A stretch of DNA of 40,645 bases, taken from a virus. The notes beneath the pieces are model-generated. The model saw only the letters and a program-made list of their open reading frames with translations. It searched no databases and had not been told where the DNA came from. A program made the position numbers and the translations under genes. Below, in pieces: positions 2 to 40,645 of the stretch. Positions within the stretch are counted from its first letter, which is position 1, and every line of letters starts with the position of its first letter. The stretch lies in IMG/VR virus record IMGVR_UViG_3300010885_018835, positions 1-40,645 of that record; one strand, 5' to 3'.

Positions 2-337
2 TCACCAACTGCCGCAAACACAAGCACAAGTCTTCTTCCAGATCCATCGGTAATACTGCCATCAGCTTCTGCACAACAGCAACAAGCTACTAATCCAGAA
101 GTAATACTTACAAATCAAATAACATCACCGACTGGTGGGTTTGTTGGCCCAAATACTATACAACCGGCTTTTGACCCAATGGCGGGAACAGCAAGCTCAG
201 TACCATTACCTTCTAAGCCTGTCGCAGATGATGAAGCAACAGTAAGTTCAACTAATGCACAAATAATAACAGCTGCCAGTGTACAAGACGGCGGCGGCCG
301 AGAAACAATACAAACATTTGGTATTGGTGGTATATAA
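2..337 (+). CDS. C-terminal fragment of an unidentified phage structural protein (partial at left edge)
   Basis: An open frame runs from the window edge to a TAA at 335-337 and gives at least 111 residues, so only the C-terminus is visible. The visible part is low complexity, rich in Pro, Ala, Ser, Thr and Gln, with a run of four Gln near residue 28 and a Gly-rich end (FGIGGI). No domain is recognisable. It lies 20 bp upstream of the gp5-like gene. In T4 the gene before 5 is 53, so a baseplate or tail-completion protein is plausible, but nothing in these residues proves it. The base composition matches the downstream genes. That it is coding is fairly sure; its identity is unknown. Confidence 0.6.
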   Translation, partial: SPTAANTSTSLLPDPSVILPSASAQQQQATNPEVILTNQITSPTGGFVGPNTIQPAFDPMAGTASSVPLPSKPVADDEATVSSTNAQIITAASVQDGGGRETIQTFGIGGI

Positions 338-357
338 TTAACATGAGAATATAATAT

Positions 358-25200: not shown

Positions 25201-25896
25201 GGAGACGTAATTACAATCACAAACATGATTCCTACAGCTACTCCTAACGAAATGGTTTATATTCAGAATGTTAACCAGACTAATGAAGCCTCTGTATACC
25301 GAGCAAATAGCCAAACTAGAACATGGTTGACTTATCCTTTGTATGATACTGCGACAGTAATTTACTTGAATGATGTTAGTAAAGTTACTCAATCTATTGT
25401 ACAAGAGGTGACAACACCTGCAGAAGTTGATGGTGTTTACAGTATTGGGTTGACTGCTGATAAAAGACTTATTTCTCAAGTTATTGTCTACAACAATACA
25501 ACTAGCAGCTATTTAGATTCTAGCAATTATTTTGTGCAAGTAATCGAATTATCACCGATACTACAAATTACTGCCGGAGTCTCAGCAGGAGATTCACTAA
25601 CAATCACTACAATTGTTGGTAAATTAATTGTAATCAACGGTGAACAGATATACTTTAAGACAGTTAACTTAGAAAACAACACACTAAGTGGACTACAGCG
25701 CGGCGCGAATGGTACAGGAGAACAAACTTATATTCCAGAATATAGTGCGGTATATGGTGTATTGTCAAGTAATCGTTTAAGTCAACCAAATTACTATTTG
25801 ACATGGAATTCCTATGTATACAACACGGTTGAGGGCGATCCTCTGCAAATTAGTGACACATATGCTGCTACTTTCTTAAATGATGACTTCGGTTGA
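7294..25896 (+). CDS. gp7: Giant baseplate wedge protein in the gp7 position (6,200 residues)
   Basis: An uninterrupted 18.6-kb frame; T4 gp7 has 1,032 residues. It starts at ATG 7294 with AGAGAG at 7283-7288. The N-terminus (LNFLPEVFRTPTNTQFL, later FNQYYWLP near residue 135) and the middle (YVNEVKPYHVVIKDF near 3490) are blocks I associate with the large gp7-like proteins of environmental T4-like phages. About 1080-2250 is Tyr/Asn/Trp-rich. About 2307-2960 looks like an FG-GAP beta-propeller and about 4710-4988 like a Ycf48/BNR propeller. Some twelve copies of a 60-70 residue beta repeat lie at about 2543-2608 and 3922-5930. A GGEEIAYASV..LTRGINGT module near 3592-3653 recurs as NGEQIYFKTV..LQRGANGT near 6109-6156. 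The likely role is the baseplate periphery, linking wedges to fibres. The gp7 call rests on gene order more than on sequence. It ends with TGA. Confidence 0.7.
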   Translation: MATRIRTLNFLPEVFRTPTNTQFLSATLDQLVGQPNTEKIEGYIGSKFGYGVNAKDKYVVEPTKTRTDYQLDPGVVFTKKDSTIAQDFISYPGIIDGLSTQGGLTQNNNRLFNSQFYSWDSFTDLDKIINFNQYYWLPTGPQAVAVSTDTVFNATSYNVTSEPNGYLLTAEGQAQGTINPTLTLLRGGTYTFTVNQNSQFWIQGAPGVTGYDPVQHNVQTRDVYGVENNGSTVGIVTFTVPQKNAQDEYNFSGNNLVSVVSTAPFDQINGRLLSEIKDIDGITALNGLTVMFYDTGVVNEYGYISSFYDTTLYDQDGGVPYTDTDFPGSSIFNDNFEGGYYSDTSANFYLITYVGDPADPTIKLTESSLIPTNQKITAQYGTEWVARNFYRNTQGTINLIPYLSAIKDVLYYQDGTSSDKVGQIRLIASNTTDRIDILTDIIGRKTYTSPNGVVFTNGLKVIFEGNIYPSSYGGIEYYVQGVGTSIELILVSDLIAPEIFTESVYVPWDTVPWDTSAFDSSLYVSTTPDYITIARNSIDKNAWSRSNRWFHVDVINATAQYNNNPNLVSLYATQANKAKRPIIEFYPNLRLFDSGIIGKPPVDFVDFRTTDAFTYVAGQESYYPDVEVYTAYTASIVGVTGGTSTTITIPASDVSGTFQVGQYVTDSTNLLPNSTRITSITGTATLTLDLSWSGVATFGSTSSASLIANDTNNGSYALFDGARIIFAADTNADVKNKIYVARFSSITPDAIPVITLTVADDGDVVIGEQVVALRGFNYQGKDVYYHEIYDINTNTYSIGWDSAQQKQTLNQPPLFDIFDKNGISFGDRSVYTSSSFIGNKLFAYGIGIGTKDSVLGFPLKYSSTVNVGDISFDVSLNLDVFNYVNGNNPITQKVNTGYVHNHTSTEAYVRELGWQTAVAPSIQYQLFQFDYIATAPTNIFTCDIAKTDTTASKWPTIQLYVNNVIQPNTSYTTTTSTSSTTVIFNVPNPLVDTVIQIQLLSDQVSNTAYYQIPINLNNNPLNEDVTTLNVGDIRGQYQSIFYNSPDTTGEVFGSNNYRDLGNLVPYGNRIIQNSASLVLPGTFIRQQNHNLFNALQFNSVEYINFKTLLIGTVDATPYEVHQTPAFMLDDALDQITSSKTEGNSFFWSDMLPSKASYISNSYSFANSLDTSIYPLSHVYNFETANYNGVLVYLSRLVQGTTVVTQLIKGVDYTVSSTSPSLTITLDLLANDQITINEYTQTYGSYVPNTPTKLGLYPSTIPAVVLDTAYAEPTYFIVGHDGSYNKLYGDYIGGKLIDFRDQVLYEFEKRIYNNLKLSNVIPVQEYEVIPGFFRDTDYSYQEFLAIYSSGFLNWVGQNRITYKTQYYNPNNEYSYNYSQSGNKLTQEAFLQGYWRGIYEYFYDTSNPDTMPWEMLGFTDEPTWWKTRYGAAPYTSDNLILWGDLSAGIDWNNGNPIVIKQAIRPQLLEVLPVDSDGNLVSPFVSVMGDYSNQNFRGDWKVGDVGPAEFSYRRSSSYPFDLMRILALTKPAEFFNLGVDVDNYKYNVEFNQYLVNDRSHLVISDVEIYGNGIAKTSYINWIVDFEKQVGVDATTNITTLLDNLDVRLVYRLAGFSDKDMLKFYVEKATASSANSSLLIPDESYSVLLYENQPFDQIIYSGVVVQSTTNGHYKIFGNSQTSAYFKTVTPKINGNYANITVYGLTVQLANDYDYNEEVLVPYGTEFYTLQEVSQFLENYGRYLESQGVLFDQIETGLEVSWRQMVSELLYWAQSGWEIGSIINLNPAANLISINKDSYIVQPLTLQQQNFILNQNMYPIQSVDLSIIRDGTLFSAQPLNQGDTVAYGQFNISNFEHGIVFNNVTLFDDIIYNLVTGLRQNRITVRGTKTAEWNGTIDAQGFILNQDNIIEWSKEVKYTTGSIVLYKNRYWSAIKIIQAKEVFDERDWKETSYNEIQKGLLPNTSTRSYESTLYYDVNQANLAYDADLLSFSLIGYRPRDYLALADLTDITQINVYKNFIKNKGTKNALSAFKGANLSQGGIDYDVYENWAIKTGEFGGVLNNNFVEFRLNETELTGNPAIVSLTNGTYTSGAQQEIPLYTLFNYGRPITNPDVLSTIPTYTPSTLYPDAGYVSFDDVKIASYYFSGVSAAPTPLSRLYANDYVWVAAIQGSWQVFTPTVISTVILATNNLNGTVSLTFDTPHNLLKYAAFAVVSFSTEIDGYYTVAEVVSPNIINIALTLIPSIRTITGLGIAFKMQSQRVATPSDINNLPLLNSEFVKNKIWVDENNDGNWAVFRKSINYNYVSEVIKDGSQTFGSAVAHTNNLGYLISDADVGEVYRYVYDPLLKDYRTYGNALVGAASFGTTIEYADDIFVISQPFGATEADRTISIYQLVITRDVNELQLLQTIIAPSSGVTNWGSAIAISGDKNWLYVSDTVHNTVYAYRKSEVTGLYQYSTTLSTGTSSANDNFGYSISTDYYGTTVLIGAPNQNYDVNTNDWGYSYVYDRLYQNLEVQYTSIQYVPQIFNLAVSVTTISTPVTATQVTTNLITCGSTSGFVVGMPIMFTGSAFGGIAENKVYYIKTIAGGTTFTISATRGGSAIVLVNASGTITAAVQSTPIYVSVNGTSIADNNYAVVGTRLYVTSSLTAGDIISVSTNNFVWAQTLTTEAEPKIGVQFGHSSDTNAYATELLVGAPFEVSQQTGEGAVYRYTNAAGKYGAITGTTNCNITAPFTILINGYAVTLPIGWAGPAATAINEANITNVQAADLDGLLSIQLIDVNLANANDKLNLSVFAKADLAQMGMTIFTQTQVINDPHTQGTTQFGTQVKFNEFGSFVATAPTGTRFAATTFDFSDDENNDNDTLFDNNGTQWVDTFANAGSAYMFDYLPVYNESISNTGQFTYAQSVNARNEYFGLQPLYGTSLDFNNSSVLIGAPNFNDGISYGQVIVYDNTTGEQDWSVYRSSAPIVDISRVQNIQMFSAETNDTLAHLDYIDPLQGKLLGIVSENLDYVSNIDPAGYNSTSSYNGNTVWGPQNLGQLWFDTSSTKFVNYHQNDNSYNSKYWGRVFPGSDVAVYSWISSNVPPSSYAGRGTPYNPGAYAFQYVTSATGAIVPVYYYWVRNTGFIFNQRGKTLADITLQNYIFNPIVTGVSFFAPLLPNTFALYNTGEFINALDSVLHVGFSTGTSDDVSHSLYSLIREDFADDFLPGLPNNNVVEIPESLYNRMLDSMCGVDEGGANVPNPFLPKPVQSGILARPRQSFFRNRFGALENYLTYANEVLAQFPIVELRNSPFLKSIGATNPTTGTPFYDVASYWSYVNWWATGYNNNTKSALQVPIYADLATLGVPAGTIVRVATNGQGTAETYRYDGDSIWTRIGLDNGTIAFSSVLWDYPSARLGFGDNFFDTTPFDEYPSTETRYIVRALNEQLYIDDLQIYRNKSLILVFEYIQSETIETQNYLPWLNKTSFVDVSHTIRELLPYEVFTSDNQAFLSGYVNEVKPYHVVIKDFLFKYTKTDVFDGDITDFDLPAQYNTTYEQFITPELVYANPSGNNQYLPSDPIWQTAPYTQWFNNYGLGITGVDNYPITLLTSYITLISPSFTVDNAYGFPINGVVNIGGEEIAYASVNTATGVISGLTRGINGTAATSHIPGEQIYINLPPVLLLDGGNGYTEPPKITAYIDTSIYPAPTRPAVLQAVMYLDTILSVDVIDSGAGYAVLPEIVIDPSTIITFDNTAVNIITDTITLGTQVLQTAGLIRYTVGADTTPVGGLSVGSYYYINVLETVPVTVIALYTNYADAINDTHRVKLFTTGNGTTNNLSLGGKASCVTSSAPIRENQISLRFDRTSYTSQVVDWTPGSFYGAFYAGVFNNSTVIASSAITLEQTQPLISTIAASAQGTAFEIMDVTNDSSLTWSSRTRNVIATTSGVNAITIEPSDGGAALSSNVGPTTGFYVGMPVKFVGTVIGNLVENTTYYVKSIIDLSNFTISATITDGIPGSVFALTTSIVPTGILTNYIGEVVDTAVLTINYPDILQATATAAITNYITTPLTITGQGGTTGFYVGLPIAFTGTEFGGIVVNKAYYVTTIVDSQTFTMSTTNDPLILDITATSSSGNLVTCNSTLGLNVNDPIIFTGTTFGGIIAGQTYYVSSYNGANFTISTSPNGGDYGPLSDDTGTCSATSQKDTVQLTTATGSMTLTAGLPVSPGQINGQEFNFYITSNQYSGVTGTTSNGLTRVVTQAIVTGNYLTISDDSGGLTDLFVGMPITFPTTYGGFGDYTTNTYTVSDTGIITDTVTNTSSTGNLLTCGSTSGFYVGMPVVFGNESLGNALLNVTYYVKSIPGSTTFTISQIPGGATFVLANDNGSMTVTGESYIRLDTIVTVNETSEITISQTPTVQAVFDVSYILGGYRIIITTPGEGYAIGNTITIAGTSVGGLSPKNNVTLTVTSVDTSGGITTAIVSGTPFSPIEQFYLKVINANQCEVYYNQALTLPVNGNTFVYSGVRSTTATIATASNDRFTVTSSADFSLYDPVVFTGTVFGGVVLGETYYIKSKPTSTTVTISETVGGATFNIASSTTGSMTMAKSGDYALLPNPFYFDQSLVKYNNNVYQCVVSNNDPTFVIGKWELMSSGSRKLNALDRIVGYYQPTVNMPGLDLTQLVTGITYPNSTYLDNAFAPANEFALDTILQDQVFYPTGINSADIMWDGTRYLVPANSADKSILLSSTDGVNWAMRDLANNVVSVTSILVVDGTHIITTKNNATPIYRSIDGVIWSVLGQNNTGTSVESTLLNSVAYLNDVWVAVGENIVTSTNTENWVQTYEFTNNLTNTINGVTGANTPGFVGFIAVGATQQIISGNAVNINLLLISIDGVTWTSPSSTLTSYAMNAVTATGDLIVIVGDHGTIFTSTNGSTWTQRTSGTTANLNDVVAGDSLYVLVGDAGLIKTSTNGITWTTRSSGTSQKLNGVTYDGTSYVVVGDSNVIITSTDGSTWTSTSMFDVLPTVYDVQGDAFESGYGPEELVPGVVTDNLSMIVTTRPGTTWDATVYQHVGYQVVSSEITPTSGSQTVYSFAKLVEYPIQLSVFVIDGETGLSTSIYTNAYSVDWINKTITLNTPLAFSPITNRLRIDVYETGNGNQLVKSDSLSNPVTFNSTTGFNEIELNCNYSASISAGSGVVRPGSESKEVTATKTESSSNSITCASIDKFTLDSPITFQGAVFGGIQLDTVYYVKTISTASNKITVSTSISSGIAGPTFILSDDTGTMQAVVQSGNGLVWTPPVVNQNGIRLNFGVISEITRTNGSTNIITCNSTDSVSVNDTVTFSSTVFGGVIQPLTIYYIKEIISANSFTISETLGGATLELSDATGGALMITNDYAFTISANGITATMVLSAVYDSSVDVISYTIFGETAPEQYSYTLPETQVYTVIGTETQFTIDNFVGGTNPTNAIVEYNGRRLVNISDYTINSTNNTLNLNFSTSPGSTVAVTSFNSTERQYLNTVYGGLYNGSIVNQLTVGSTTNIIGTYDQDTPTAQSFDQDTPSVVLFDEDFNYLTLSSGSTSTLNINDGIEFVAPTIGGIVAGQTYYVASILNSTDFTISLTAGGEAIQVTNDSGAMDSFTTPPTVANIININNVIAPPLAQPKVTATASGTNLITCASTGNFVVNQLVIFKAPIADAAGLAVGHTYQITDLGTTTQSQWNTIAGTSGVVYAVGDIILVAAAGTGTGSALLTSFGGINLLGEYYYIASINGITTFTIKDINGTTVALSNDTGLIEAFVGGNPAISITTGIPNNLVENDLVRIDGVSGSTQLNNNTYYAKIVSPTQILLYETPYDPAYGALNYPVLNVFTYTGGGYVWLDKLFTLTNATATATITGSNLIEVNNNSELVPGTPVIFTGTTFGGITAGLTYYVRQIVGDTYFTVSETRGGDEVLLSDDTGRMNVTEWEQMNVDRLWVTVNGYRVPSSSLYLNPNNNLSILTTIVGGDVITITNMIPTATPNEMVYIQNVNQTNEASVYRANSQTRTWLTYPLYDTATVIYLNDVSKVTQSIVQEVTTPAEVDGVYSIGLTADKRLISQVIVYNNTTSSYLDSSNYFVQVIELSPILQITAGVSAGDSLTITTIVGKLIVINGEQIYFKTVNLENNTLSGLQRGANGTGEQTYIPEYSAVYGVLSSNRLSQPNYYLTWNSYVYNTVEGDPLQISDTYAATFLNDDFG
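14211..16160 (+). other. FG-GAP-like beta-propeller region inside the giant protein
   Basis: Repeated blades are readable: QTFGSAVAH, TNWGSAIAISGD, DNFGYSISTDYYGTTVLIGA, FGHSSDTN..ELLVGAP, TQFGTQVKF and YFGLQPLYGTSLDF..VLIGAP, each followed by a Tyr-rich strand such as GYSYVYD or GQVIVYD. This is the pattern of integrin-type FG-GAP repeats (FG...hhhGAP...G.hhhY). One copy of the beta repeat (14920-15117) is inserted between blades. Such propellers usually bind proteins or glycans; the ligand here is unknown. Confidence 0.65.
14920..15117 (+). repeat. Copy 1 of the 60-70 residue beta repeat, inserted in the FG-GAP region
   Basis: The copy reads NLITCGSTSGFVVGMPIMFT, followed by GSAFGG, then VYYIKTI, TTFTISAT and a closing ASGTI strand. 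It follows the consensus N-L-I-T-C-x-S-T-x-x-F-x-V-x-x-P-h-x-F-T-G-x-x-F-G-G-h...Y-Y-h-K-x-I...F-T-I-S...S-D-D-T-G-x-M. It is isolated from the other copies by about 4 kb and interrupts the propeller. Confidence 0.7.
19057..21018 (+). repeat. Copies 2-7 of the beta repeat, first cluster
   Basis: Six diverged copies start near 19057, 19411, 19612, 20008, 20176 and 20812. Constant features are an FYVGMP or VNDP turn, an F-T-G-x-x-F-G-G-I segment, YYVKSI and FTIS. Copy 5 (20008) is partial and lacks the usual YYVKSI/FTIS half. Copies 2 and 6 still share 17 identical bases (TTCTATGTTGGTATGCC at 19126-19142 and 20206-20222), suggesting fairly recent duplication. Spacers between copies vary and contain other beta-rich sequence. 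Confidence 0.7.
21418..22258 (+). other. Ycf48/BNR-like beta-propeller region inside the giant protein
   Basis: At least six blades follow the pattern hhhSTDGxxWxxRxSGTxxxLNxV...YVxVGDxGxI. Examples are ILLSSTDGVNWAMRD, IYRSIDGVIWSVLG, LLISIDGVTWTSPSS, TIFTSTNGSTWTQRTSGT, LIKTSTNGITWTTRSSGT and VIITSTDGSTWTSTS. These Asp/Trp-box repeats are known from BNR/sialidase-type propellers and from Ycf48. In a phage baseplate protein the domain is most easily read as an adhesive or scaffolding module. The ligand is not predictable. Confidence 0.75.
22846..25078 (+). repeat. Copies 8-12 of the beta repeat, second cluster
   Basis: Copies begin near 22846, 23170, 23905, 24208 and 24880. Copy 11 (24208-24585) is about twice normal length because a second module (24301-24446; LGTTTQSQWNTIAGTSGVVY, then AAAGTGTGSA) is inserted between its FxxP strand and its FGGI strand. 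The repeat's second half then resumes normally with YYYIASI and TTFTI. Copy 12 is close to consensus (VIFTGTTFGGITAGLTYYV). Confidence 0.7.
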
Positions 25897-26719: not shown

Positions 26720-27919
26720 ATGGCATATACGATTGTAAAAAGCAATGGAACAGTACTAACAACTATTGCTGACGGTACCGTCAATACAACAAGTACAACA
26801 CTAGGTTTACCGGGTAGAAATTACGCCGGTTACGGAAATATTGTGGACACTAACTTTGTTCACATCATTGAGAATTTTGCATCTACTACACCACCTGCAA
26901 ACCCATTACAGGGTCAATTGTGGTATAACACTAACACAGGCACATTGAATGTCTGTCCTGCAGACGGTACTTCAAATGCATTGCAATGGTTAACATTGAC
27001 TTCTACTGCTAGCGGAGGAACAACTACATTTGGTAACGTTAGTGTCACTGGTAACTTACAAGCAAATAACATTACTGCATTGAATGCGTTTACAGGTGAC
27101 ACAATTACTGTTCGTTTAGCTACAGTAACTGCAAATGCTACAATTGCTAACGCTGCAATTACTACTGGTAATATTGGTACATTAAATTCAGCAGTTATTC
27201 GTGCAGGTAGTGCAAATACTACACCGGGTTCTATTGTTGGTACTTTTACAATTAACGGTGGTTTGTCAGGTAATGCACTTATTGTAACAAACGGTAACGT
27301 ATATGCATCAGGTGTCAGAACAGATAACTACTACTATGCTAACGGTAACCCATTCAATCCAACTGGTACTTATACAAACGGTAACGTTTTTGATTATATG
27401 ACTGGTTCTAATGCAATATCACAGTTTACAGGTAATATTGCTCCTACTAAAGTAACTACAACTGCAATTGCAGGTGGCGGAAATATTTCTGGTATCTGGA
27501 CATTAGCAAGTGGTGCTAGATTAAATGCAACATACGCTGACTTGGCTGAAAGATTCCATGCTGATGCTGAGTATGCTCCGGGAACTGTCGTTGAAATGGG
27601 CGGAACTAATGAAATTACTGCGGTTCAGTATGAATTAAGTGAAGATGTGTTCGGTGTCGTATCTGACACTGCTGCTTACTTGATGAATGCAGGCGCAGGC
27701 AATGATAACACTCACCCTCCGGTAGCGGTTGGTGGTCGTGTTGCTGTTAAAGTAACAGGCAAAGTGAAAAAAGGACAACGATTGGTTAGTGCAGGCAACG
27801 GTATAGCTAGAGCAGCTAAGCCAGGGGAAGCAACAGCATTCAATACAATTGGACGTTCTTTGGTTAATAAAACAGACGATGGTGTAGGCACAGTCGAAGC
27901 TTTTGTTTCAATTAAATAA
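26720..27919 (+). CDS. Tail-fibre protein with C-terminal autocleavage/chaperone-type domain
   Basis: 399 residues. The N-terminus (YTIVKSNGTVLTTIADGTVN, then NPLQGQLWYNTNTGTL near 73-88) is an attachment domain frequent in fibres of environmental myophages. The middle is a Thr/Asn/Ala/Gly-rich repetitive stalk (GNVSVTGNLQANNITALNAF), consistent with a trimeric beta-structure. From about residue 272 the C-terminus (YADLAERFHADAEYAPGTVV, FGVVSDTAAYLMN, VAVGGRVAVKVTGKVKKGQR) resembles the Peptidase_G2/IMC-type intramolecular chaperone domain that helps fold and is then cut from some phage appendages. The cleavage site cannot be assigned by eye. It probably recognises the host surface. It follows a late-promoter motif and has a GGAG ribosome site. 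Confidence 0.8.
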   Translation: MAYTIVKSNGTVLTTIADGTVNTTSTTLGLPGRNYAGYGNIVDTNFVHIIENFASTTPPANPLQGQLWYNTNTGTLNVCPADGTSNALQWLTLTSTASGGTTTFGNVSVTGNLQANNITALNAFTGDTITVRLATVTANATIANAAITTGNIGTLNSAVIRAGSANTTPGSIVGTFTINGGLSGNALIVTNGNVYASGVRTDNYYYANGNPFNPTGTYTNGNVFDYMTGSNAISQFTGNIAPTKVTTTAIAGGGNISGIWTLASGARLNATYADLAERFHADAEYAPGTVVEMGGTNEITAVQYELSEDVFGVVSDTAAYLMNAGAGNDNTHPPVAVGGRVAVKVTGKVKKGQRLVSAGNGIARAAKPGEATAFNTIGRSLVNKTDDGVGTVEAFVSIK

Positions 27920-30788: not shown

Positions 30789-31105
30789 TAGTTTGGGAAG
30801 CCCCTCCGGTAATTAAGCCCGAATTCAGATTATATTATGATGATAAGGGTAGGGTATTATTCTATACCTGCGAAAAACCCGAAGGTAATTACATTACTAT
30901 TGATGCTACTACCTATGCAGAAGGTAGGCCTGATGTACGAGTAGTTGACGGTAAGTTGTCACGTAATTCTAATGGGGCAGTTGTTAGCAAATTAATTATC
31001 AGTGACGAAGGTATATCATGTGCAACAGAAGATATAAGCATTGTAGTAAGTGATGATTACGACGGTAAAAAAACTAAATGGAAATTAACAACTTATGAGT
31101 TATGA
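30773..31105 (+). CDS. 110-residue beta-rich protein of unknown function
   Basis: It starts at ATG 30773, overlapping the end of GT2 by 16 bp, and itself overlaps the next gene by 11 bp. The N-terminus is rich in aromatic and proline residues (MEDYVIVWEAPPVIKPEFRL), followed by a predicted beta-hairpin (YYDDKGRVLFYTCEKPEG) and regular polar/hydrophobic strands (AVVSKLIISDEGISCATEDI). There are two cysteines and no membrane segment. No family is recognised. Deep embedding between GT genes implies a linked role, for example an accessory subunit or a small modified protein. That is inference only. Confidence 0.75.
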   Translation: MEDYVIVWEAPPVIKPEFRLYYDDKGRVLFYTCEKPEGNYITIDATTYAEGRPDVRVVDGKLSRNSNGAVVSKLIISDEGISCATEDISIVVSDDYDGKKTKWKLTTYEL

Positions 31106-32048
31106 AGATATTATTGATGTAGTTGATTTAGATTGTATCTATCTCAGCTATGACGAACCACAAAAAGAAGAATTCTGGCTTAAAGTAAAGAACATGGTGC
31201 CGTGGGCAAAGCGTGTTGATAACGTTAAAGGTAGTGACGCCGCACACAAAGCTGCAGGTGAAGCAAGTGACACAGAACGTTTCATCTTAATTGACGGAGA
31301 TAACATGCCAGAAGAAACCTTCTTCAACCTTCAATTAGACTTTACAGGCAAAGACGAAACATTTAGAAAAGCACAGTTTAGATGGAAAGCGATTAATAGT
31401 ATCAACGGTCTACGCTACGGTAACGGTGGGATGAGTAGTTGGACAAAGACTTATGTGCGTGAAATGAAAACACACGAACACCAGACAGAAGGTGATGTTT
31501 CACGTATAGCCGATTTTTGCTTGGATAGTAAAGATAACTTGTACTGGGCCATGCATGATTGTTACAGTACAACTTATCCCAATTACACACCATTTCAAGC
31601 ATGGCGCGCAGGATTTCGTGAAGGCGTAAAAATGAGTTTGAATCGTGGATCACGTCCTACAGTAGACGAATTCAAAGAAACAGTTGCAAGTCGTAACCTA
31701 AACAACTTGACTATTTGGCAGAACGTTGGCATGGATGTTGAGAATGGTGACTGGGCTATCATGGGAGCACGTATGGGGACTCATATGACAATGCTTACTG
31801 ATTGGGATGTACATAACGTGCAGTGGTTTGATAACTATATTGAAATGTGGGAGAAAATTAAAGATGAAGACCCACTTGAACTATCAGAAGCATATGGTAT
31901 TGAATTAAGCACTAAGCTAGGATTACCTATGTGTGCATTAAACAGTGAACAAAGTGCATTCTTTAAGCGTCACTATAATGCTGATAAGTATAACATTGGT
32001 CCATTAGTTAGAGAGATGGATGTAATAAGAAAGATTGAAGGTTGGTAA
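31095..32048 (+). CDS. Glycosyltransferase-like protein with DGDN motif
   Basis: 317 residues. DLDCIYLSYDEPQKEEFW (11-28) fits the first strand and loop of a GT-A fold. WAKRVDNVKGSDAAHKAAGE (37-56) resembles the donor-binding helix, and FILIDGDNMP (63-72) provides D67 and D69 as a probable DxD metal site. Later NSINGLRYGNGGM recurs in the terminal repeat protein of this window. The C-terminal half is mixed and contains WRAGFREGVKMSL. The most likely role is a phage glycosyltransferase or nucleotide-sugar-binding protein. It overlaps the 110-residue gene by 11 bp and is followed after 4 bp by a radical SAM gene. I know similar proteins only as uncharacterised phage genes, so the GT assignment is motif-based. 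Confidence 0.7.
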   Translation: MSYEDIIDVVDLDCIYLSYDEPQKEEFWLKVKNMVPWAKRVDNVKGSDAAHKAAGEASDTERFILIDGDNMPEETFFNLQLDFTGKDETFRKAQFRWKAINSINGLRYGNGGMSSWTKTYVREMKTHEHQTEGDVSRIADFCLDSKDNLYWAMHDCYSTTYPNYTPFQAWRAGFREGVKMSLNRGSRPTVDEFKETVASRNLNNLTIWQNVGMDVENGDWAIMGARMGTHMTMLTDWDVHNVQWFDNYIEMWEKIKDEDPLELSEAYGIELSTKLGLPMCALNSEQSAFFKRHYNADKYNIGPLVREMDVIRKIEGW

Positions 32049-32052
32049 AAAT

Positions 32053-33468
32053 ATGTCAAATTACGATGATTATCAAAATCATTTGAACAATGTAAAAAAT
32101 GAACTAGATAGCGTAAGCCCTAGTTTTTGTGTTGCTAAATGGAAACAAGTGACGATGCACTTGCAAAACGGGATGAACCATAGTTGTCATCATCCCAAAA
32201 CTCATGTAGTTCCTATATCTGAAATTAAGTTCAATCCCACTGCACTACATAATAGCGAATTCAAAAAAGAACAGCGCAAATTAATGCTTGAGGGAAAACG
32301 ACCAGCCGAATGTGATTACTGTTGGCGTGTAGAAGATAGTGGTCAAGGTAGCTTAAGTGATAGAATATACAAAAGTGCTGACCAATGGGCACAACCTTTT
32401 ATAAAAGATATTCAAAGTAAGCCTTGGGATGATGACGTTGATCCTAGCTATGTGGAAGTAAGCTTTAGTAATGTTTGTAATTTCAAATGTAGCTATTGTG
32501 CTCCTCATATCAGCAGTCAATGGATGGAAGAAATTGAGAAGTATGGGGCATATCCAACATCTAATCATTTCAATAACCTAGATTGGATTAAGCAAGAAAA
32601 TATGATGCCTATCCCTAATAGGGAAGAGAATCCATATGTTGATGCATTTTGGGCTTGGTGGCCTACTATGTATCAAAATCTACAACATTTTAGAATTACA
32701 GGTGGCGAACCATTACTAAGTAAAAACACATTCTTAGTATTGGATTATATTATTGAAAATCCTAACCCTAACTTAGAGGTTAGTATCAATACAAATATGA
32801 ATCCTCCTGAAGAACTATTTGATAAGTTTATTGAAAAGATTAAAATTATCATTACTGAAAAGAAAGTTAAGAAATTCAAACTGTTCACTAGTGCAGAAGC
32901 ACACGGTAAACAAAGCGAGTATATTCGTTTTGGTATGAATTATGACAAGTGGTTAAGCAATATTCATCGTGTATATAAAGAGATTCCAGAAATCGAATTC
33001 ACTATTATGAGTACATATAATATACTCAGTTTAACAACTTATACACATTTTTTAGATGATATATTGGATATTAAGCGACAGTACGGTAAACACGATGATT
33101 TCCGTAATCCAATGTTATTAGATATCCCTTACTTGCGTTATCCTGACCATCAAGCTATATTCATTATGGAACCAGAAATGCTTCCAATGTTATACGACCA
33201 AGTAACTCATATGTATCGTAATTTAGAATATAAAAATTGGTATGGTACTGCTAATAGAGGTTTCTATGAACACGAAGCAGATAAGCTAAAAAGAATATAT
33301 ACTATGGTTAGCAATATGGAACCAAATCAATGGACTACTAACACCAATGAAACACGAAAAGACTTTGTTAAGTTTGTAGATGAACACGATAAAAGACGAG
33401 GAACTAATTTCTTAGAAACATTCCCTGAATTTGAAGGATTCTACAATAGAATTAAACAAACAATGTAA
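32053..33468 (+). CDS. Radical SAM enzyme with N-terminal twitch domain (1)
   Basis: 471 residues from ATG 32053. An in-frame TTG 18 bp upstream is possible but overlaps the previous gene and adds no conserved sequence; GAAGG at 32037-32041 fits either weakly. CNFKCSYC supplies the radical SAM cysteines C142, C146 and C149. GGEP at 217-220 is the SAM-binding motif. Upstream cysteines C26 (SFCVAKW), C45 (NHSCHHP), C87 and C90 (ECDYCW) match the N-terminal twitch arrangement that would hold an auxiliary 4Fe-4S cluster. Such enzymes generate a 5'-deoxyadenosyl radical; the substrate is unknown and could be a sugar, a peptide or a protein side chain. It sits between a GT-like gene and a 431-residue probable GT, pointing to glycan or virion modification. 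Confidence 0.88.
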   Translation: MSNYDDYQNHLNNVKNELDSVSPSFCVAKWKQVTMHLQNGMNHSCHHPKTHVVPISEIKFNPTALHNSEFKKEQRKLMLEGKRPAECDYCWRVEDSGQGSLSDRIYKSADQWAQPFIKDIQSKPWDDDVDPSYVEVSFSNVCNFKCSYCAPHISSQWMEEIEKYGAYPTSNHFNNLDWIKQENMMPIPNREENPYVDAFWAWWPTMYQNLQHFRITGGEPLLSKNTFLVLDYIIENPNPNLEVSINTNMNPPEELFDKFIEKIKIIITEKKVKKFKLFTSAEAHGKQSEYIRFGMNYDKWLSNIHRVYKEIPEIEFTIMSTYNILSLTTYTHFLDDILDIKRQYGKHDDFRNPMLLDIPYLRYPDHQAIFIMEPEMLPMLYDQVTHMYRNLEYKNWYGTANRGFYEHEADKLKRIYTMVSNMEPNQWTTNTNETRKDFVKFVDEHDKRRGTNFLETFPEFEGFYNRIKQTM

Positions 33469-33473
33469 AACTT

Positions 33474-34769
33474 ATGATTACGGCAACTTATGATAAAGCA
33501 ATTGATCCAGTGACTGGGGTCATTTATCCAAGCATGTGTGATAAGAATTATTTGAATGGTCCTAATAAACGACCATCAAACTTTGATGAACACATGTTTC
33601 GTGTCACGCAGGAAAACGATAGTTATAGAACACACGTATTGGTACCATACGAGGACGTGCAGTATGTTCCATTGGATAGTGTTACTACAAAGTATTTTTA
33701 TCTAGTTAATACCTTTAACGTTAATTTTTATGATGAAATGCGAGAGGTAGGTTTTTCGCACGTTGATAATAAAATTATAGAAGATGCAAATGCAGGAAAC
33801 TGTAAAATTATCTTTATACAAGATGTTGAAGGTATGTCGGGTTTAGTCAACACACATCATGAGTATGAATTCAGAACCATACAAGAATGGTGTACTAAAG
33901 CTAATATTAATCCCAAAGCAGTACACTATATTTGTGGCAACTTAATAGCAGATAAAAGAGCACAAGAACAAGGTTGTACCTATCAAGTACATCCAATCAC
34001 CACCCAGGAAACATGGAATAACATAAAAAGTTACCCACTTGGAGTCACAAGGTTTGAGCCAACCAAATCAAACTATCTATATTTGAATTACAACAGGCAA
34101 AGTAGATTTCATCGGGTTTGTATGCTATCTAAGTTAATAAAACACGAGTTATTTGATAAAGGTATGAATAGTTTTAATACAATGGGTCGTTCATTTAATC
34201 AATTTAGTTATAGACTTGACGATTTTGAACCGGGCTTATCTGTCTACGGACAGCAATTATTTGACCGTGCTCCTATTTTTGTAGACACTGATAATTCAGA
34301 TATCACTAGCAGCGTAGGTGATTTATCTAACTATACTGACACCTTTATATCATTGATTTCAGAAACATTAACTGAACCTGGCACATTGTTCTGTAGTGAA
34401 AAGACTTGGCGATCAATTATAGTAGGTCATCCATTTATGATTCTAGGTAGCACTAATCAGTTGAAATACTTAAGGTCACAGGGTTTCAAAACTTTTGGTA
34501 ATTGGATAGATGAAAGCTACGATGATTTTGATGACTTAGATAAAAAAATTAATATTATCTTATCTAATTTAGAACGCTTCAATAAAATGTCATTGGATGA
34601 ATTGAAGAATATTCGTAATGAAATGGAATCAGTCTTGATTCATAATAAGAATCATATGAGAGAATATTCAGCAAAGAAATATTATTACGGAGAAAGATAT
34701 TCGCACAAGAAGCCAGTTGAAATAATATTGTTTGATATTTGGAACCAATTTAATAATGGAGATATATGA
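33474..34769 (+). CDS. Probable glycosyltransferase-family protein (431 residues)
   Basis: The diagnostic C-terminal block is FISLISET (291-298), SEKTWRSIIVGHPFMILGS (308-326), then LKYLRSQGFKTF and WIDESYDDFDDLDKKI. This resembles the donor-binding half of GT-B-type transferases such as fucosyltransferase-like proteins, where a Glu-Lys-Thr segment precedes a hydrophobic strand and a Gly turn. YLYLNYNRQSRFHR (201-214) is a second conserved-looking block. The N-terminal 190 residues are not recognisable. There is no signal peptide or membrane helix. It follows the radical SAM gene after five bases and overlaps the epimerase gene by ATGA, so it is part of the same operon. Glycosyl transfer is probable but could not be confirmed by motif alone. 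Confidence 0.65.
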   Translation: MITATYDKAIDPVTGVIYPSMCDKNYLNGPNKRPSNFDEHMFRVTQENDSYRTHVLVPYEDVQYVPLDSVTTKYFYLVNTFNVNFYDEMREVGFSHVDNKIIEDANAGNCKIIFIQDVEGMSGLVNTHHEYEFRTIQEWCTKANINPKAVHYICGNLIADKRAQEQGCTYQVHPITTQETWNNIKSYPLGVTRFEPTKSNYLYLNYNRQSRFHRVCMLSKLIKHELFDKGMNSFNTMGRSFNQFSYRLDDFEPGLSVYGQQLFDRAPIFVDTDNSDITSSVGDLSNYTDTFISLISETLTEPGTLFCSEKTWRSIIVGHPFMILGSTNQLKYLRSQGFKTFGNWIDESYDDFDDLDKKINIILSNLERFNKMSLDELKNIRNEMESVLIHNKNHMREYSAKKYYYGERYSHKKPVEIILFDIWNQFNNGDI

Positions 34770-35719
34770 AAAAAGTTGTAGTATGTGGTGCAGGTGGATT
34801 TATAGGAAGTCATTTAGTAACTGATTTGAAAAGTCGTGGGTGCTATGTCATTGGAGTTGACTTAAAGTATCCAAAATTTAGCCAAACGGATGCAGATGAG
34901 TTTATCATTGCTGATTTACGTGTGCATTCAAACGTTGACCATGTTATTAAAAGTGATGTTGATGAGATTTATCAATTGGCTGCAGATATGGGCGGTGCTG
35001 GATATATCTTTACAGGTGAGCACGATGCTGACATCATGCACAATAGCTGCCAGATCAACTTAAATGTATTAGACGTTATGAAGAAGAAAGGAATTAAGAA
35101 AGTCTTTTATTCTAGTAGTGCATGTATGTACCCAAGTCACAATCAAGAGGATCCTAACAATCCATTAATGAGTGAAGACAGTGCTTATCCTGCTAATCCA
35201 GATAGTGAGTACGGCTGGGAGAAGTTATTCAGTGAACGACTATATCTCACATACGCACGTAACTATAAAATAGATGTTCGTATTGCACGATTTCATAATA
35301 TATTTGGTCCCAATGGTTCTTGGAACAACGGTAAAGAAAAAGCTCCGGCTGCATTGTGTCGCAAAATAGCAATGTGTGAAGATAAAGGTGTAGTAGAGAT
35401 ATGGGGCCCGGGCAACCAAACACGCAGTTTCTTATATATTGATGAGTGTATAGAAGGCATATACCGTATCATGGAAAGTAATTGTGTTGTGCCAGTAAAC
35501 TTGGGTAGTACACGAATGATAAGTATAAATCAATTAGTATTTTTAATAGCTAAATTAGTAGGTAAAAATGTTTCGATTGAAAATGTTGATGGCCCTAGAG
35601 GTGTATTGGGTCGCAATAGTGATAACAGATTGATAAAAGAATTGATAGATTGGGTACCAGATGAAAATTTAGAAGACGGGCTACTAAAAACATATAATTG
35701 GATAAAACAACAGCTATGA
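34766..35719 (+). CDS. GDP-mannose 3,5-epimerase-like NAD-dependent sugar epimerase
   Basis: 317 residues of the extended SDR family. The nucleotide-binding motif GAGGFIG is at 8-14. The SSSACMYPS strand places Cys120, and YGWEK contains Tyr149 and Lys153. NGKEKAPAALCRK holds Lys192, and GVLGRNSDNRLIKE holds Arg283. These positions correspond to the Cys, Tyr, Lys, Lys and Arg reported as important in plant GDP-mannose 3,5-epimerase, and neighbouring text (LAADMGGAGYIF, RFHNIFGP, TRSFLYIDECIEGI) is also close to that enzyme. The expected reaction converts GDP-D-mannose to GDP-L-galactose/L-gulose, but a related NDP-sugar cannot be excluded. Its product could feed the transferases of this cassette. 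ATGA overlaps link it to both neighbours. Confidence 0.88.
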   Translation: MKKVVVCGAGGFIGSHLVTDLKSRGCYVIGVDLKYPKFSQTDADEFIIADLRVHSNVDHVIKSDVDEIYQLAADMGGAGYIFTGEHDADIMHNSCQINLNVLDVMKKKGIKKVFYSSSACMYPSHNQEDPNNPLMSEDSAYPANPDSEYGWEKLFSERLYLTYARNYKIDVRIARFHNIFGPNGSWNNGKEKAPAALCRKIAMCEDKGVVEIWGPGNQTRSFLYIDECIEGIYRIMESNCVVPVNLGSTRMISINQLVFLIAKLVGKNVSIENVDGPRGVLGRNSDNRLIKELIDWVPDENLEDGLLKTYNWIKQQL

Positions 35720-35796: not shown

Positions 35797-35831
35797 AATT
35801 TTTCAAAAATATAGAAATGTGGTATATAAAT

Positions 35832-36479
35832 ATGAGTGAAATAAATTTGAACTGGTTAGTCGAGAACTTTAAGGATAAAGAAATTGTAGTGTTTGATATT
35901 GGTGCTGCCGACTTACATGATACTATTAGAATCAAACAAGTATTACCAGACGCTAAATTCTATTCATTTGAATGTAATAAAGTGTGGGAAGCACGAAATA
36001 ATATAACCGCAATGAATTACGGGATACATCATTTTCAATGCGCAGTAACTGATGTTGAGGGTGAAGATATATTTTATCCTAGTGATACATTACGAGGTGA
36101 ACCGTGGCATTATTCTGGTAGCATGTGTCCGCCCGTAGAAACTTCTGATTTTGAATGGGGCGATTCTTATTCAGTTCGAACAATCAGATTGGATACATTT
36201 TGCGAAAGATTTAATGTGAGTCCTACTTTTATTCACATTGATGTACAAGGTGCCGAGTACAAAGTATTATCTTGCTTAGGAAAGTATAGACCCCTAGCTA
36301 TTTGGGCAGAAATATGTGAGTTTGAAAATGTATATGAGACTGGTACTACTTATAATAAATTCAAAGATTTAATGACAGAACTAGGATATGTTTCGATGTG
36401 CAGGCATAACGGAGACGAATTATTTGTATTCCACTCGGTTCAACTTACAACCTATACTATGGAAAATAAAGATGAGTGA
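35832..36479 (+). CDS. FkbM-family SAM-dependent methyltransferase
   Basis: 215 residues from ATG 35832; an alternative ATG at 35817 would add MWYIN, and neither has a clear ribosome site. Motif I is VFDIGAAD (20-27), followed by FYSFECN (43-49) for the adenosine ribose. The FkbM hallmark FIHIDVQGAEYKVL is at 133-146. RTIRLDTF precedes it, as in most members. Such enzymes O-methylate sugars or other small molecules, so it probably caps or decorates a glycan made by the neighbouring transferases. The gene overlaps the second radical SAM gene by 8 bp. No metal motif or signal sequence is seen. Confidence 0.88.
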   Translation: MSEINLNWLVENFKDKEIVVFDIGAADLHDTIRIKQVLPDAKFYSFECNKVWEARNNITAMNYGIHHFQCAVTDVEGEDIFYPSDTLRGEPWHYSGSMCPPVETSDFEWGDSYSVRTIRLDTFCERFNVSPTFIHIDVQGAEYKVLSCLGKYRPLAIWAEICEFENVYETGTTYNKFKDLMTELGYVSMCRHNGDELFVFHSVQLTTYTMENKDE

Positions 36480-37578
36480 TATACTGAAAAACTATGTTTG
36501 TACGAACCCATTTAAGTACTTAGATGTGCAGCCAAATAGCCAATGGATATGTTGTCCTAGTTGGGCTCCGACTAATATACGAGCAAATGAAAATGGTAAT
36601 GAATACCCTATAAAATTTACTGATAATTTATTGAGTAATTGGGAAAGTGATGTTGCGCAAGATATTCGTAGATCCGTTATTGACGGTACTTACAATCATT
36701 GCGAACATAAAGTTTGTCCTAGTTTATCAGAATTAATCAATACTGGACGCAAACCTGACAATTTTATTACAAAAGAAGAATTTGAAAAAACAACAGAGAT
36801 TTATTCAATAGAAGACCTACACAAATTTAATGGTAGACCAGAAGAAATATTGTTTGGATTCGACCGTAGTTGTAATCTAAGATGCCCTAGTTGTAGAGAT
36901 AGATTAATACCAAATGACGAACTAGACAGTGAAGATTACAAACACAAAAAGTTTTTATTAGATCAGATAGAGACACATTTTTCTCAATCTGCAAAGAAGT
37001 TATTAATTACCGGCAGTGGCGATCCTTTTTATAGCAAGATTTACAGAGATTACTTGGTAAACTTTGACAGTAGCAAATATCCAAATTTAGAACAAATCCA
37101 AATCATTACCAATGGGGTGTTACTAAATCAAAAGATGTGGGAATCATTGCAATCTAAAAAGTTTATTAAAATAATAGAAATCAGTGTAGATGCAGGCACA
37201 AAAGATACTTATGAAAATATAACAAGACTCAACGGAGATTGGGATAGATTAATTGAAAATATAAAATATTTAAGTACCCAAAATTCAATTGACACTATGA
37301 TATTTTCAATGGTAGTAAGTCAACTGAATTATAAAGAAATGCTACCATTTTATAATATACTTACTGAAATATTTAAGAACAGTAAAATACGACTGCGATT
37401 AAATTTTAGACAACATGTTTATTGGAGTTCAGGTAAATTGACAATCAACGAGGTTCGAGATATAAGTGTATTTGACAAAAATCATTCAGAATTTAATCAA
37501 TTCATGGATGCACTATCACTGGTTAAAGACATGCCTTATGTTAATCATAACTTTCACCACTTACTAGATGATTGTTAA
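36472..37578 (+). CDS. Radical SAM enzyme with N-terminal cysteine-rich (twitch-like) domain (2)
   Basis: 368 residues from ATG 36472, overlapping the FkbM gene by 8 bp. The longer frame from 36388 lies wholly within FkbM coding and adds no motif, so it is not used. CNLRCPSC gives radical SAM cysteines C134, C138 and C141. GSGDP (181-185) stands where GGEP is usual, and QIITNG follows. Upstream cysteines C10, C27, C28, C77 and C82 (YVCTNPF, WICCPSW, HCEHKVC) suggest an auxiliary cluster domain before the barrel, different in spacing from the first radical SAM protein. The substrate is unknown. Two such enzymes bracketing an epimerase and a methyltransferase suggest radical chemistry on a sugar or on a fibre or host protein. 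It ends 36 bp before the large repeat protein. Confidence 0.87.
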   Translation: MSDILKNYVCTNPFKYLDVQPNSQWICCPSWAPTNIRANENGNEYPIKFTDNLLSNWESDVAQDIRRSVIDGTYNHCEHKVCPSLSELINTGRKPDNFITKEEFEKTTEIYSIEDLHKFNGRPEEILFGFDRSCNLRCPSCRDRLIPNDELDSEDYKHKKFLLDQIETHFSQSAKKLLITGSGDPFYSKIYRDYLVNFDSSKYPNLEQIQIITNGVLLNQKMWESLQSKKFIKIIEISVDAGTKDTYENITRLNGDWDRLIENIKYLSTQNSIDTMIFSMVVSQLNYKEMLPFYNILTEIFKNSKIRLRLNFRQHVYWSSGKLTINEVRDISVFDKNHSEFNQFMDALSLVKDMPYVNHNFHHLLDDC

Positions 37579-37614: not shown

Positions 37615-40600
37615 ATGATAAGAGATGTATTCTATTACGGAAATAAACCCAATGCTCACCCACGTGAACGACATGCTGATTCATTAGATCAGGCAAGGTC
37701 AATGTCCACTACTGAGCATTTTTGGATTATTAATGCACAGTGTGATTATAAAGGATTTGACTGGGATTGGGACTTTGATTTCTTACCGGATGAAGATGTA
37801 TGGTCGCAAGAACACAACAATGTGTGGCCTAGTAGTTATCAAAAAGACAGTGGCACTTGGTTATGTCCAACTCAACTAAGTGAAGTAATAGTCTATCGTA
37901 ATGATGTAGATCCAGTACCGTTAAAGAATGAAATATCTAGCAACTGGGTAATAATTGAAAATATTGATAAAGATAAATTTGACTTTAGGTGGCACCCTGA
38001 TCCAACCGACCCGCCGTACATCTATGTGTGGGGGACCAAATGGAACTCTCCTGAATTAGGTCCTGCATTAGAATATCATACTCCCGGATCCACTGAACGT
38101 AAATATATGCCAACATTTGTTTCGGTTGAACCACAGTGGGATCGATGGAAAATAAACTACCCCGTAGATGATGCTACCTTTGATTTTACTTGGAGACCGA
38201 ATCCAAGAGAGCCAAATTTTATTTATAAATGGGGTTGTAAACATTTTCCTGTAGAGTTACAAGCATGTTTAGAATATCACATACCGGACGCGACTGATAT
38301 CAAGTACATGCCAGAACTAGTAAAATTATTACCTCAAACAGAAAGATGGATTGAAGTACAGGCTGTTGATAAGTCTAAGTTTGATATGACATGGCGACCT
38401 GATCCACGTGAACCTGAATTGATTTATGTTTGGGGCAACAAATATATTGATGGAACAATACGTCCTACATTAGAATATCACATGCCCGGTGCAACAGATA
38501 CCAAGTATATGAGTGAGCCAGTTCCTGTTCTCCCTGAATGGAATCGTTGGGAAATATTACATGAAGTAGATAAAGAATCTTTTGACTTTAGTTGGAGACC
38601 TGATCCAAGGGAACCTGACTATATTTATGTATTTGGTAACACTCAGTATCCGGGGACAATAATGCCAACCATTAGGTATCATTGTTTGAATGCCACTGTA
38701 GAAAAACACGTAACAGATATCGTAGCAAAATTAGCACAGCAGCCAGATTTGTTTGAGAACATAACTGATAATTTTGATTACAGTTGGAGACCTGACCCAA
38801 CTAGCCCACCTTATGTCTATCAATTTGGTACATTACTAGATGAAAATGATGGCCCGCGCTATGTTGTGCCTGGCAACAATGGGGTAGTCGTTCACTTAGA
38901 ACGTAAAGAGGTTGTGTTGGAAGAATTAATTTTCCCGCATTATTATATAAAAACCACATTGGAAGCCTTAATAGAAGAACATCCTAGTGAAATTTTCTGG
39001 GCATTGAACCCCGACTTAGATTATTCAAATTTTGATTTTAAGTGGGTGCCTGACAAAGATAACGTTTATCACGTTAACGCATTCGGCAGTAAAGATAACC
39101 AGAATACACAGACATATTTTGTTAACGGTAATATGTGGCAAAAAGGTTACAGAGATATCAATTATGTTGAGGATAAGATTATTGATGTTAGAACTAAAAT
39201 TGATATGTTCTTTATCGATAGGGGAAATAGTGAATCTCATATACGATTTCAAGCATTATGTGAACGTTTCCCTAATATTGTTAAAACACGATACTTGAAT
39301 AGTTGGGTAGATACAATTAATCGTTGTACCACTAAATCAACTACTAATCTATGCTGGATATTGAACAGTGAACTAGACTACACTGACTTTGAATTTGACT
39401 ATTACCCTAGTCCATGGCAAATGAAGATGGTGCATGTATTTGGTACTCAATGGAGTCATTGGGGAACTACGTTTATGGTCAACAAAACTACTTTTCCTGA
39501 AGACACTAAGTATGTTAAAGTTATTGAGCATTTGAATGTACTTAATTTTGTTAAGCGTAAAACAGCAAAGGCTACCAATTGCCTATATGATATTGTTTAC
39601 ATAGATCACGGCAACTTGGTTGATGCTATTGAAAATAAATTGATTATCAAGTATGATGCTAGCTATTTGAAAACATTTAAGACAATGTTAAAGTCATTGC
39701 CAGTGCAAAAAGAACACTATGTTTGGGTATGTTCTAGTATATGTGACTATGATAATTTTGACTTTAGTTATATATGTGATCCATATGCAAAAGAACAATT
39801 ACATGTATTTCCTAGCGATAAACAAAAGTTTGGTGACACATTCTTAATTGATGTGAACAAATTGCGTTCATTGATTGAAGATATGGATATGTTAGAAGAT
39901 TATGTAAAGATCAACTACAATCAACATCAACGAGTAAAAAGATTAACTCCGCCTACAATTATAAGTGACGATACTCATTGTGATTCTGTACAACAAGAGT
40001 TTGATTTCCCTTATGCTATTTTTAAGACAATCGATAACAAGGACTTAACTGTAGTAGACAATGAACCAATGAGTCTATGGGCCCCTGATACTAAGAACAT
40101 TATTGTTACTAGTACCGGCGGCTCACGTATCATTGTTCCAAAAGAAGCAAAGAAATTTATTGACGGTGAATTATACGATTATCCATATATTAGTCATTCT
40201 ACTAACTTAGCGCAATCTCAGCCATTGGATATAGTCTTCCTAAGCAACGGTGAAACTGGTGCTGACGAGAACTACGAACACTTACTGAAAGTGACTAAGG
40301 GGTTGCGTAATAGAGTAGTTAGAGTTGATGGGGTGAATGGTCGTGTGGCAGCATATCATGCAGCAGCACTAGCAAGTAATACTCCCTGGATGTTCACTGT
40401 ATTTGCTAAATTGAAAGTCAACAGTAAATTTGATTGGAGTTGGCAACCTGATAGATTACAAATACCTAAGCATTATATCTTTAATGCAACTAACCCAGTG
40501 AACAGATTAGAGTATGGTCACCAAGCAATGATTGCATATAATAAAAAGATTACGTTAGCTAACAGTGGTACTGGTCTTGACTTTACACTTGACAACGAAC

Positions 40601-40645
40601 ACGAAGTTGTAGACATTAATTCGGGTGTCGCGGTATACAATACAG
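37615..40645 (+). CDS. Large repeat protein with GT-like modules (partial at right edge)
   Basis: Open from ATG 37615 to the window end: 1,010 codons, no stop. Codons 1-52 hold a unit starting DVFYYGNKPNAHPRE and ending EHFWIINAQCDYKGFDWDW. Five repeats follow with F at codons 122, 189, 256, 323 and 387; the first four are exactly 67 residues apart. Their consensus is W-x(9-12)-F-D-F-x-W-R-P-D-P-x-x-P-x-x-I-Y-x-W-G, then L-E-Y-H-x-P-x-A-T-x-x-K-Y-M. Diverged copies have F at 473, 592, 715 and 939. Longer modules begin at about 528 (IDMFFIDRGN), 659 (DIVYIDHGN) and 872 (DIVFLSNGE). The last shares RVDGVNGRVAAYHAA and NPVNRLEYG with the GT-like protein at 31095-32048, but lacks its DGDN. It is probably a glycan-related or adhesive phage protein; the function is unknown. 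Confidence 0.85.
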   Translation, partial: MIRDVFYYGNKPNAHPRERHADSLDQARSMSTTEHFWIINAQCDYKGFDWDWDFDFLPDEDVWSQEHNNVWPSSYQKDSGTWLCPTQLSEVIVYRNDVDPVPLKNEISSNWVIIENIDKDKFDFRWHPDPTDPPYIYVWGTKWNSPELGPALEYHTPGSTERKYMPTFVSVEPQWDRWKINYPVDDATFDFTWRPNPREPNFIYKWGCKHFPVELQACLEYHIPDATDIKYMPELVKLLPQTERWIEVQAVDKSKFDMTWRPDPREPELIYVWGNKYIDGTIRPTLEYHMPGATDTKYMSEPVPVLPEWNRWEILHEVDKESFDFSWRPDPREPDYIYVFGNTQYPGTIMPTIRYHCLNATVEKHVTDIVAKLAQQPDLFENITDNFDYSWRPDPTSPPYVYQFGTLLDENDGPRYVVPGNNGVVVHLERKEVVLEELIFPHYYIKTTLEALIEEHPSEIFWALNPDLDYSNFDFKWVPDKDNVYHVNAFGSKDNQNTQTYFVNGNMWQKGYRDINYVEDKIIDVRTKIDMFFIDRGNSESHIRFQALCERFPNIVKTRYLNSWVDTINRCTTKSTTNLCWILNSELDYTDFEFDYYPSPWQMKMVHVFGTQWSHWGTTFMVNKTTFPEDTKYVKVIEHLNVLNFVKRKTAKATNCLYDIVYIDHGNLVDAIENKLIIKYDASYLKTFKTMLKSLPVQKEHYVWVCSSICDYDNFDFSYICDPYAKEQLHVFPSDKQKFGDTFLIDVNKLRSLIEDMDMLEDYVKINYNQHQRVKRLTPPTIISDDTHCDSVQQEFDFPYAIFKTIDNKDLTVVDNEPMSLWAPDTKNIIVTSTGGSRIIVPKEAKKFIDGELYDYPYISHSTNLAQSQPLDIVFLSNGETGADENYEHLLKVTKGLRNRVVRVDGVNGRVAAYHAAALASNTPWMFTVFAKLKVNSKFDWSWQPDRLQIPKHYIFNATNPVNRLEYGHQAMIAYNKKITLANSGTGLDFTLDNEHEVVDINSGVAVYNT
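37978..38838 (+). repeat. Tandem 67-residue (201-bp) FDFxWRPDP repeats in the terminal protein
   Basis: Repeat starts are at 37978, 38179, 38380, 38581 and 38773, giving spacings of 201, 201, 201 and 192 bp. Protein identity is high around FDFTWRPNPREPNFIYKWG and in the LEYH/KYM segment. The nucleotide sequences have drifted, so the array is not a product of very recent slippage. The exact 67-residue period argues for a structural repeat. Confidence 0.85.

Follow-up and report, generated by a model that had tools for sequence, protein, structure and literature searches.

Pseudo-glycosyltransferase domains are known singly. COSMC (C1GALT1C1), a GT31 pseudo-enzyme, lost the DxD motif, lacks xED as well, and became a chaperone that supports an active paralogue (PMC7185993). 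LH3, a collagen lysyl hydroxylase with a GT domain and an inactive AC domain, carries an inactive GT-A domain next to an active one (PMC6082870). Loss of DxD is also found in GT14 and in some bacterial GT6 enzymes, which work independently of metal; in GT14, basic side chains take its place (PMC7185993).

The phage protein described here, P0001, is like COSMC a GT-A relative devoid of DxD, but COSMC has a single domain whereas P0001 is an array. LH3, which is among the fold matches of the array model, has two domains and no array. The terminal cap module of P0001 (D) resembles GT14, which is active, in joining a GT-A fold to basic residues at the place of DxD. The likeness to COSMC, to GT14 and to LH3 is one of description. 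In the papers searched we found no description of such an array, which comprises up to ~37 enzyme-derived modules, most of them halved.

The sugar island and its neighbors

The window, that is, the whole stretch of DNA analyzed, is IMG/VR record IMGVR_UViG_3300010885_018835 (40,645 bases). Its opening genes are a T4-type baseplate set (hub with lysozyme, gp25 and gp6), and its gp6 is ~34% identical to the gp6 of jumbo phages that include Sinorhizobium phage Phosso, Agrobacterium phage Atu_ph07 and the Rak2/Munch group. After gp6 come a 6200-codon gene, fibre-like genes and a sugar island, which holds two small GT-like genes, the single-domain protein P0002, radical SAM proteins, an epimerase, an FkbM methyltransferase and the array gene (Table 1). 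The two small GT-like genes are mutually related (blastp E=4e-8), and neither matched a Pfam family above cut-off. The first radical SAM-like product matched PF04055 at E=2e-6, which is under Pfam's cut-off, and a PHROG radical SAM family at E=8e-11.

Gene content of the island varies from phage to phage. In many relatives an O-carbamoyltransferase gene (~495 aa), not present in the window itself, lies immediately 5' of the array gene, for example at L002:6494-7987; further neighbors in relatives are radical SAM proteins with B12 domains, UDP-glucose dehydrogenase, DegT aminotransferase and epimerases. We counted these glycan-type neighbors (carbamoyltransferase, radical SAM, epimerase, DegT, UDP-glucose dehydrogenase) in favor of a glycan role. 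Phages are known to glycosylate DNA with glycosyltransferases (PMC12619734), and the cluster might accordingly hypermodify phage DNA, with the array as a scaffold for base-modifying transferases. We find this very unlikely, as the neighbors are of the kind that serves nucleotide-sugar and polysaccharide chemistry and searches of general scope showed no base-modification gene in the stretches examined.

Relatives of the array were found on contigs of up to 525 kb. Atu_ph07 and Phosso have the tail genes and a radical SAM cluster in common with the window, and tblastn gave no array or P0002 match in the stretches of these phages that were checked. Both carry a 13.3-13.7 kb virion protein gene in the position of the 6200-codon gene, with partial similarity. 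The sole bacterial match, L159, is a contig of 82 kb with a truncated array gene, assigned by binning to a Crocinitomicaceae MAG; it may hint at a host or reflect a binning error. Because P0002 and gp6 are both absent from it and its array stops at the contig edge, we drew no conclusion from it about the host.

Table 1. Features of the window from the 6200-codon gene to the contig end.
Feature	Coordinates	Strand	Remarks
6200-codon gene	7294-25896		adjoins gp6; nearly half of the window
Fibre-like protein	26720-27919		weak match to Peptidase_G2 self-cleaving domain; PHROG virion families
Two adjacent genes, 267 and 251 aa	29233..30788	+	GT-A-like by motif only
P0002, single-domain relative with DGD	31095..32048	+	candidate catalytic partner
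Asp-Gly-Asp motif of P0002	31293..31301	+	invariant in 24 aligned
Radical SAM-like protein	32035..33468	+	ATG start at 32053
NAD-dependent nucleotide-sugar epimerase	34766..35719	+	domain and PHROG matches
FkbM-type methyltransferase	35817..36479	+	domain match
Second radical SAM protein	36388..37578	+	domain match
Array protein P0001, 1010 codons	37615..40645	+	open at contig end
Module N, degenerate GT-A-like unit	37615..37938	+	DVFYYGN ... FWIINAQCDY..FDWDW
Half-module S, copy 1	37939..38139	+	FDFRWHPDPTDPPYIYVWG
Half-module S, copy 2	38140..38340	+	
Half-module S, copy 3	38341..38541	+	
Half-module S, copy 4	38542..38736	+	
Half-module S, copy 5	38737..38898	+	last one, adjoins A
Module A	38920..39192	+	YYIKTTLEALIEEHPSEIFWALNPDLDYSNFDFKW; lacks first strand
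Module B	39196..39579	+	DMFFIDRGN ... ILNSELDY
Module C	39586..39999	+	DIVYIDHGN ... VCSSICDY
Linker ahead of cap	40000..40218	+	mostly low confidence in model
Cap module D	40225..40644	+	DIVFLSNGE ... VFAKL ... NPVNRLEYG; cut by contig end
Phe-Ala-Lys in cap D	40402..40410	+	aligned with DxD site

Architecture of the array

A common plan was found in 124 distinct relatives: module N, 0-33 S units of ~65 aa each, A and B where present, and finally C and the cap D, with copy numbers derived from metagenome assemblies. Complete relatives measure 533-3070 aa. P0001 is incomplete because the contig ends; the missing gene end, which an earlier note on this DNA had proposed to recover, is supplied by the complete relatives, which stop ~70-85 aa beyond the truncation point. 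We hold the homology of the modules and this architecture to be practically certain.

The earlier note had described a protein built from multiplied transferase-like modules, and the strings on which it relied are all present (DVFYYGN at codon 4, DMFFIDRGN at 530, DIVYIDHGN at 659 and DIVFLSNGE at ~872). Its claim of one plan for the N-terminal unit and three longer modules held as regards homology and overlooked module A (codons ~436-526). Likewise, the FDFxW stretches that it pointed out exist, and those at codons 122, 189, 256, 323 and 387 turned out to be five truncated second-half copies that had gone unrecognized. Amplification is supported, with the multiplying unit being mainly the half-module S and not the full module.

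The S unit aligns to the second half of A and B, from the strand that precedes the lost motif onward. Conservation in the unit is highest at W2, F13, D14, W17, P19, Y28, Y42, K51 and Y52 (unit numbering). Loss of the motif in every module would suit relics of a decaying multi-domain transferase that are kept by drift. Such an origin is hardly credible, however, as the caps and S-unit residues are strongly conserved across hundreds of phages and the frames stay intact up to 3070 aa in an ordered architecture.

Family K connects the modules to P0002

Profile-profile comparisons gave E values of 1e-11 for D-P0002, 3e-15 for B-C, 2e-14 for A-B and 3e-11 for S-A. Judged against 25 column-shuffled controls, the pairs N-A, N-B, N-C, S-A, S-B, S-D, A-B, A-C, B-C and D-P0002 scored clearly over the best control, A-D and B-D just slightly over it, and direct comparison of P0002 with N, S, A, B and C stayed at noise level. 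The last module and P0002 both contain RVDxVxGxxAAxxAA and NxhNxLxYG, from which the earlier note had argued that the two align; their relation goes beyond chance by blastp as well (E=2e-11 with D of relatives).

A second family, K, came to light by way of L293 and L296; it was first met in L293, as the latter half of an ORF of 528 aa, and later in 208 stretches. It consists of uncharacterized phage GT-like proteins (members up to 1182 aa) whose cap is homologous to the array cap. The K profile matched P0002 at 1e-30, D at 9e-23, B at 6e-10 over 86 columns and N at 4e-5, with N, A and C spanning 4e-5 to 2e-4; P0002, D, B, N, A and C were all above the 20 shuffles used as controls, and S was marginal. 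These profiles support K as a bridge by which D and B would be tied to P0002, and N, A and C as well but less strongly, N, B and C reaching P0002 through K. The motif of K is DGD in 33 and DAD in 12 of 45 distinct sequences. On an unrooted tree the D caps group in a single clade to the exclusion of K and P0002 (support 100/100), and one motif loss therefore suffices; row D115_L139 of this tree is actually a P0002 and is not among the 115 distinct D caps.

Long K members (L351, L359, L315, L360, L337, L310 and L326) adjoin radical SAM and GT genes and have degenerate GT-like modules before the cap, as the window family does. With ~3-9 such modules ahead of an intact DGD or DAD cap, L351, L359, L315, L360, L337 and L326 represent a parallel array type, which differs from the window family in cap motif (DGD/DAD versus xAK) and in repeat length (~100 aa versus 65). 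Searching annotated phages by tblastn with P0001, P0002, the 533-aa relative L076 and the K domain found no relative, one match at E=0.6 being disregarded. Likewise, P0001 and P0002 had nothing above cut-off in Pfam, PHROGs or NCBIfam, and PDB sequence searches gave no real match.

Predicted fold of the modules

We modeled a relative of 912 aa (L072) with AlphaFold from 41 alignment rows. The mean pLDDT was 76.9 and the pTM 0.44, a value that makes the placement of domains untrustworthy. Cap D is predicted as a Rossmann-like alpha/beta/alpha core, with pLDDT ~80-90 over most of D. Its best fold match was B4GALNT1 (Z 11.9, rmsd 2.9 A, 140 residues), and nucleotidyltransferases of the same general fold score close behind the GT-A enzymes. 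Module C (L072 residues 467-597) matched beta-1,4-galactosyltransferase (Z 9.9, rmsd 3.5 A, 131 residues), module B shows the same strand-helix order in the model, and S is only half a domain. In the model, D and C are in the GT-A fold. This superposition, together with the matches of D, B and P0002 to the DGD/DAD-bearing family K, bears out the transferase derivation that the earlier note had suggested; for P0002, whose own model is poor (pLDDT 55.7), the kinship with D and K is one of sequence.

The top viral-library matches to the array model, A0A6J5L5L5 and A0A6J5LK21 (uncharacterized, uncultured Caudovirales phage, BFVD), share 32-36% identity and a common model fold with the array over most of the protein, and are members or close relatives of the family.

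Loss of the metal motif

P0002 keeps DGD throughout 80 loci and in 24/24 aligned rows, three odd tallies of its motif being alignment shifts. As the earlier note had read it, IDGDN of P0002 faces INAQC, LNSEL, CSSIC and VFAKL in the large protein. DxD is missing from all 115 distinct D caps, where F/N/W/P-A/G-K takes its place; Lys occupies the third position of the site in 114 of them (xAK or xGK), the exception being FAT in L268. Elsewhere in the array the aligned site is mostly NEF or NEY in N, NSE in B and SSI or SSV in C. That the array has lost the metal motif is beyond reasonable doubt.

The sequences make it plausible that the modules are non-catalytic. Since Lys stands at the metal site and metal-independent GT-A enzymes exist, we term the array metal-motif-less rather than non-catalytic. 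By analogy with those enzymes, the conserved Lys would fit metal-independent catalysis or a binding role.

P0002 accompanies the array

An orthologue of P0002 was found in 23/26 virus records with an array, and in all 23 of those that hold gp6. From the three records without P0002, and from no others, gp6 is missing too, and these are therefore probably incomplete. The co-occurrence could also reflect common ancestry of one phage clade. Fusions of a P0002-type with a K-type domain in which each has DGD were seen in L296, L300 and L301 and in L293 at 323-1909 (minus strand). Likewise, an eroded P0002-type domain is fused to an intact K in L349, L306, L314, L325 and L329. As at least one DxD copy persists in every arrangement seen, we propose that the array and P0002 form a split transferase. 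The sequences suggest, at a little under an even chance, that P0002 is the catalytic partner of the array.

The same data bear on whether cap D could itself be an active metal-independent GT-A transferase, with Lys for metal, the array serving as its acceptor arm and P0002 being a separate pathway enzyme. The Lys in 114/115 caps, a core that is otherwise strongly conserved, and the metal-free GT14 and bacterial GT6 enzymes without DxD, GT14 with its basic side chains (PMC7185993), argue for an active cap. However, the loop of D reads YGHQA versus YGNGG in P0002, Thr replaces Lys in L268, and the fusions suggest that one intact partner is enough. We consider an active D unlikely.

Array interiors are replaced between related phages

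Comparison of related arrays reveals interiors that are unalignable or ~67-74% identical despite 87-97% identical ends and flanks. Such pairs are L165/L166 (11 and 8 S units), L039/L016 (22 and 21) and L020/L013 (9 and 4). A milder interior change was seen in L030/L037, and none in L060/L050, L050/L051 and L256/L257. Units with a partner at least 95% identical in the same array make up 0.5%, and this scarcity of near copies favors exchange of stretches. Fresh tandem duplication as the source of the array is disfavored, since most units are not near-copies of their neighbor. The variation fits exchange of stretches between phages; L191/L206 was the one pair of divergent arrays that pointed to a recent transfer, and this may be an artefact of assembly.

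Constant ends around a variable interior resemble host-range proteins. Together with the conserved aromatics in S and the tail and baseplate genes that lie at least ~11 kb upstream in the window, this resemblance would suit a carbohydrate-binding virion or cell-surface protein, an adhesin or decoy, that recruited GT modules and is unconnected to P0002. This is rather improbable: the gene stands in a sugar-enzyme island, often right behind the carbamoyltransferase, and not in the structural block, in the K relatives an array of this kind still bears a cap that looks active, and Pfam and PHROG searches found no virion domain in the array.

A proposed split glycosyltransferase

The best explanation, which we offer tentatively and at somewhat less than even odds, is a GT-A glycosyltransferase split over two proteins, the array being its large part devoid of the metal motif. 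P0002, with its DxD kept, would carry out the transfer. Cap D, a K-type domain without DxD, would be the pairing partner of P0002, in the manner of COSMC and T-synthase or of the accessory GT domain in LH3. Modules N, A, B and C and the variable S units would bind or position an acceptor glycan or glycoprotein, which may be made and modified by the sugar island lying between the P0002 and array genes; for S in particular, acceptor binding is a possibility that we hold with some doubt. Recombination that replaces or resizes the S array would alter which acceptor binds. On this basis the array might even be a recombining specificity array, in which 0-33 exchanged half-modules reprogram the glycan target of P0002 and catalysis and target choice lie on two genes, a reading that we regard as rather speculative and unlikely.

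Of the two phage families, one retains the motif of the cap and the other has lost it. The intact K cap, the intact pair, the half-eroded pair and the fully separated pair make up a natural series that would allow the loss of catalysis, and its takeover by a partner, to be tested. The array gene is conserved yet fast-changing in abundant, very large freshwater phages, and it probably shapes glycans, of the phage virion or of the host surface.
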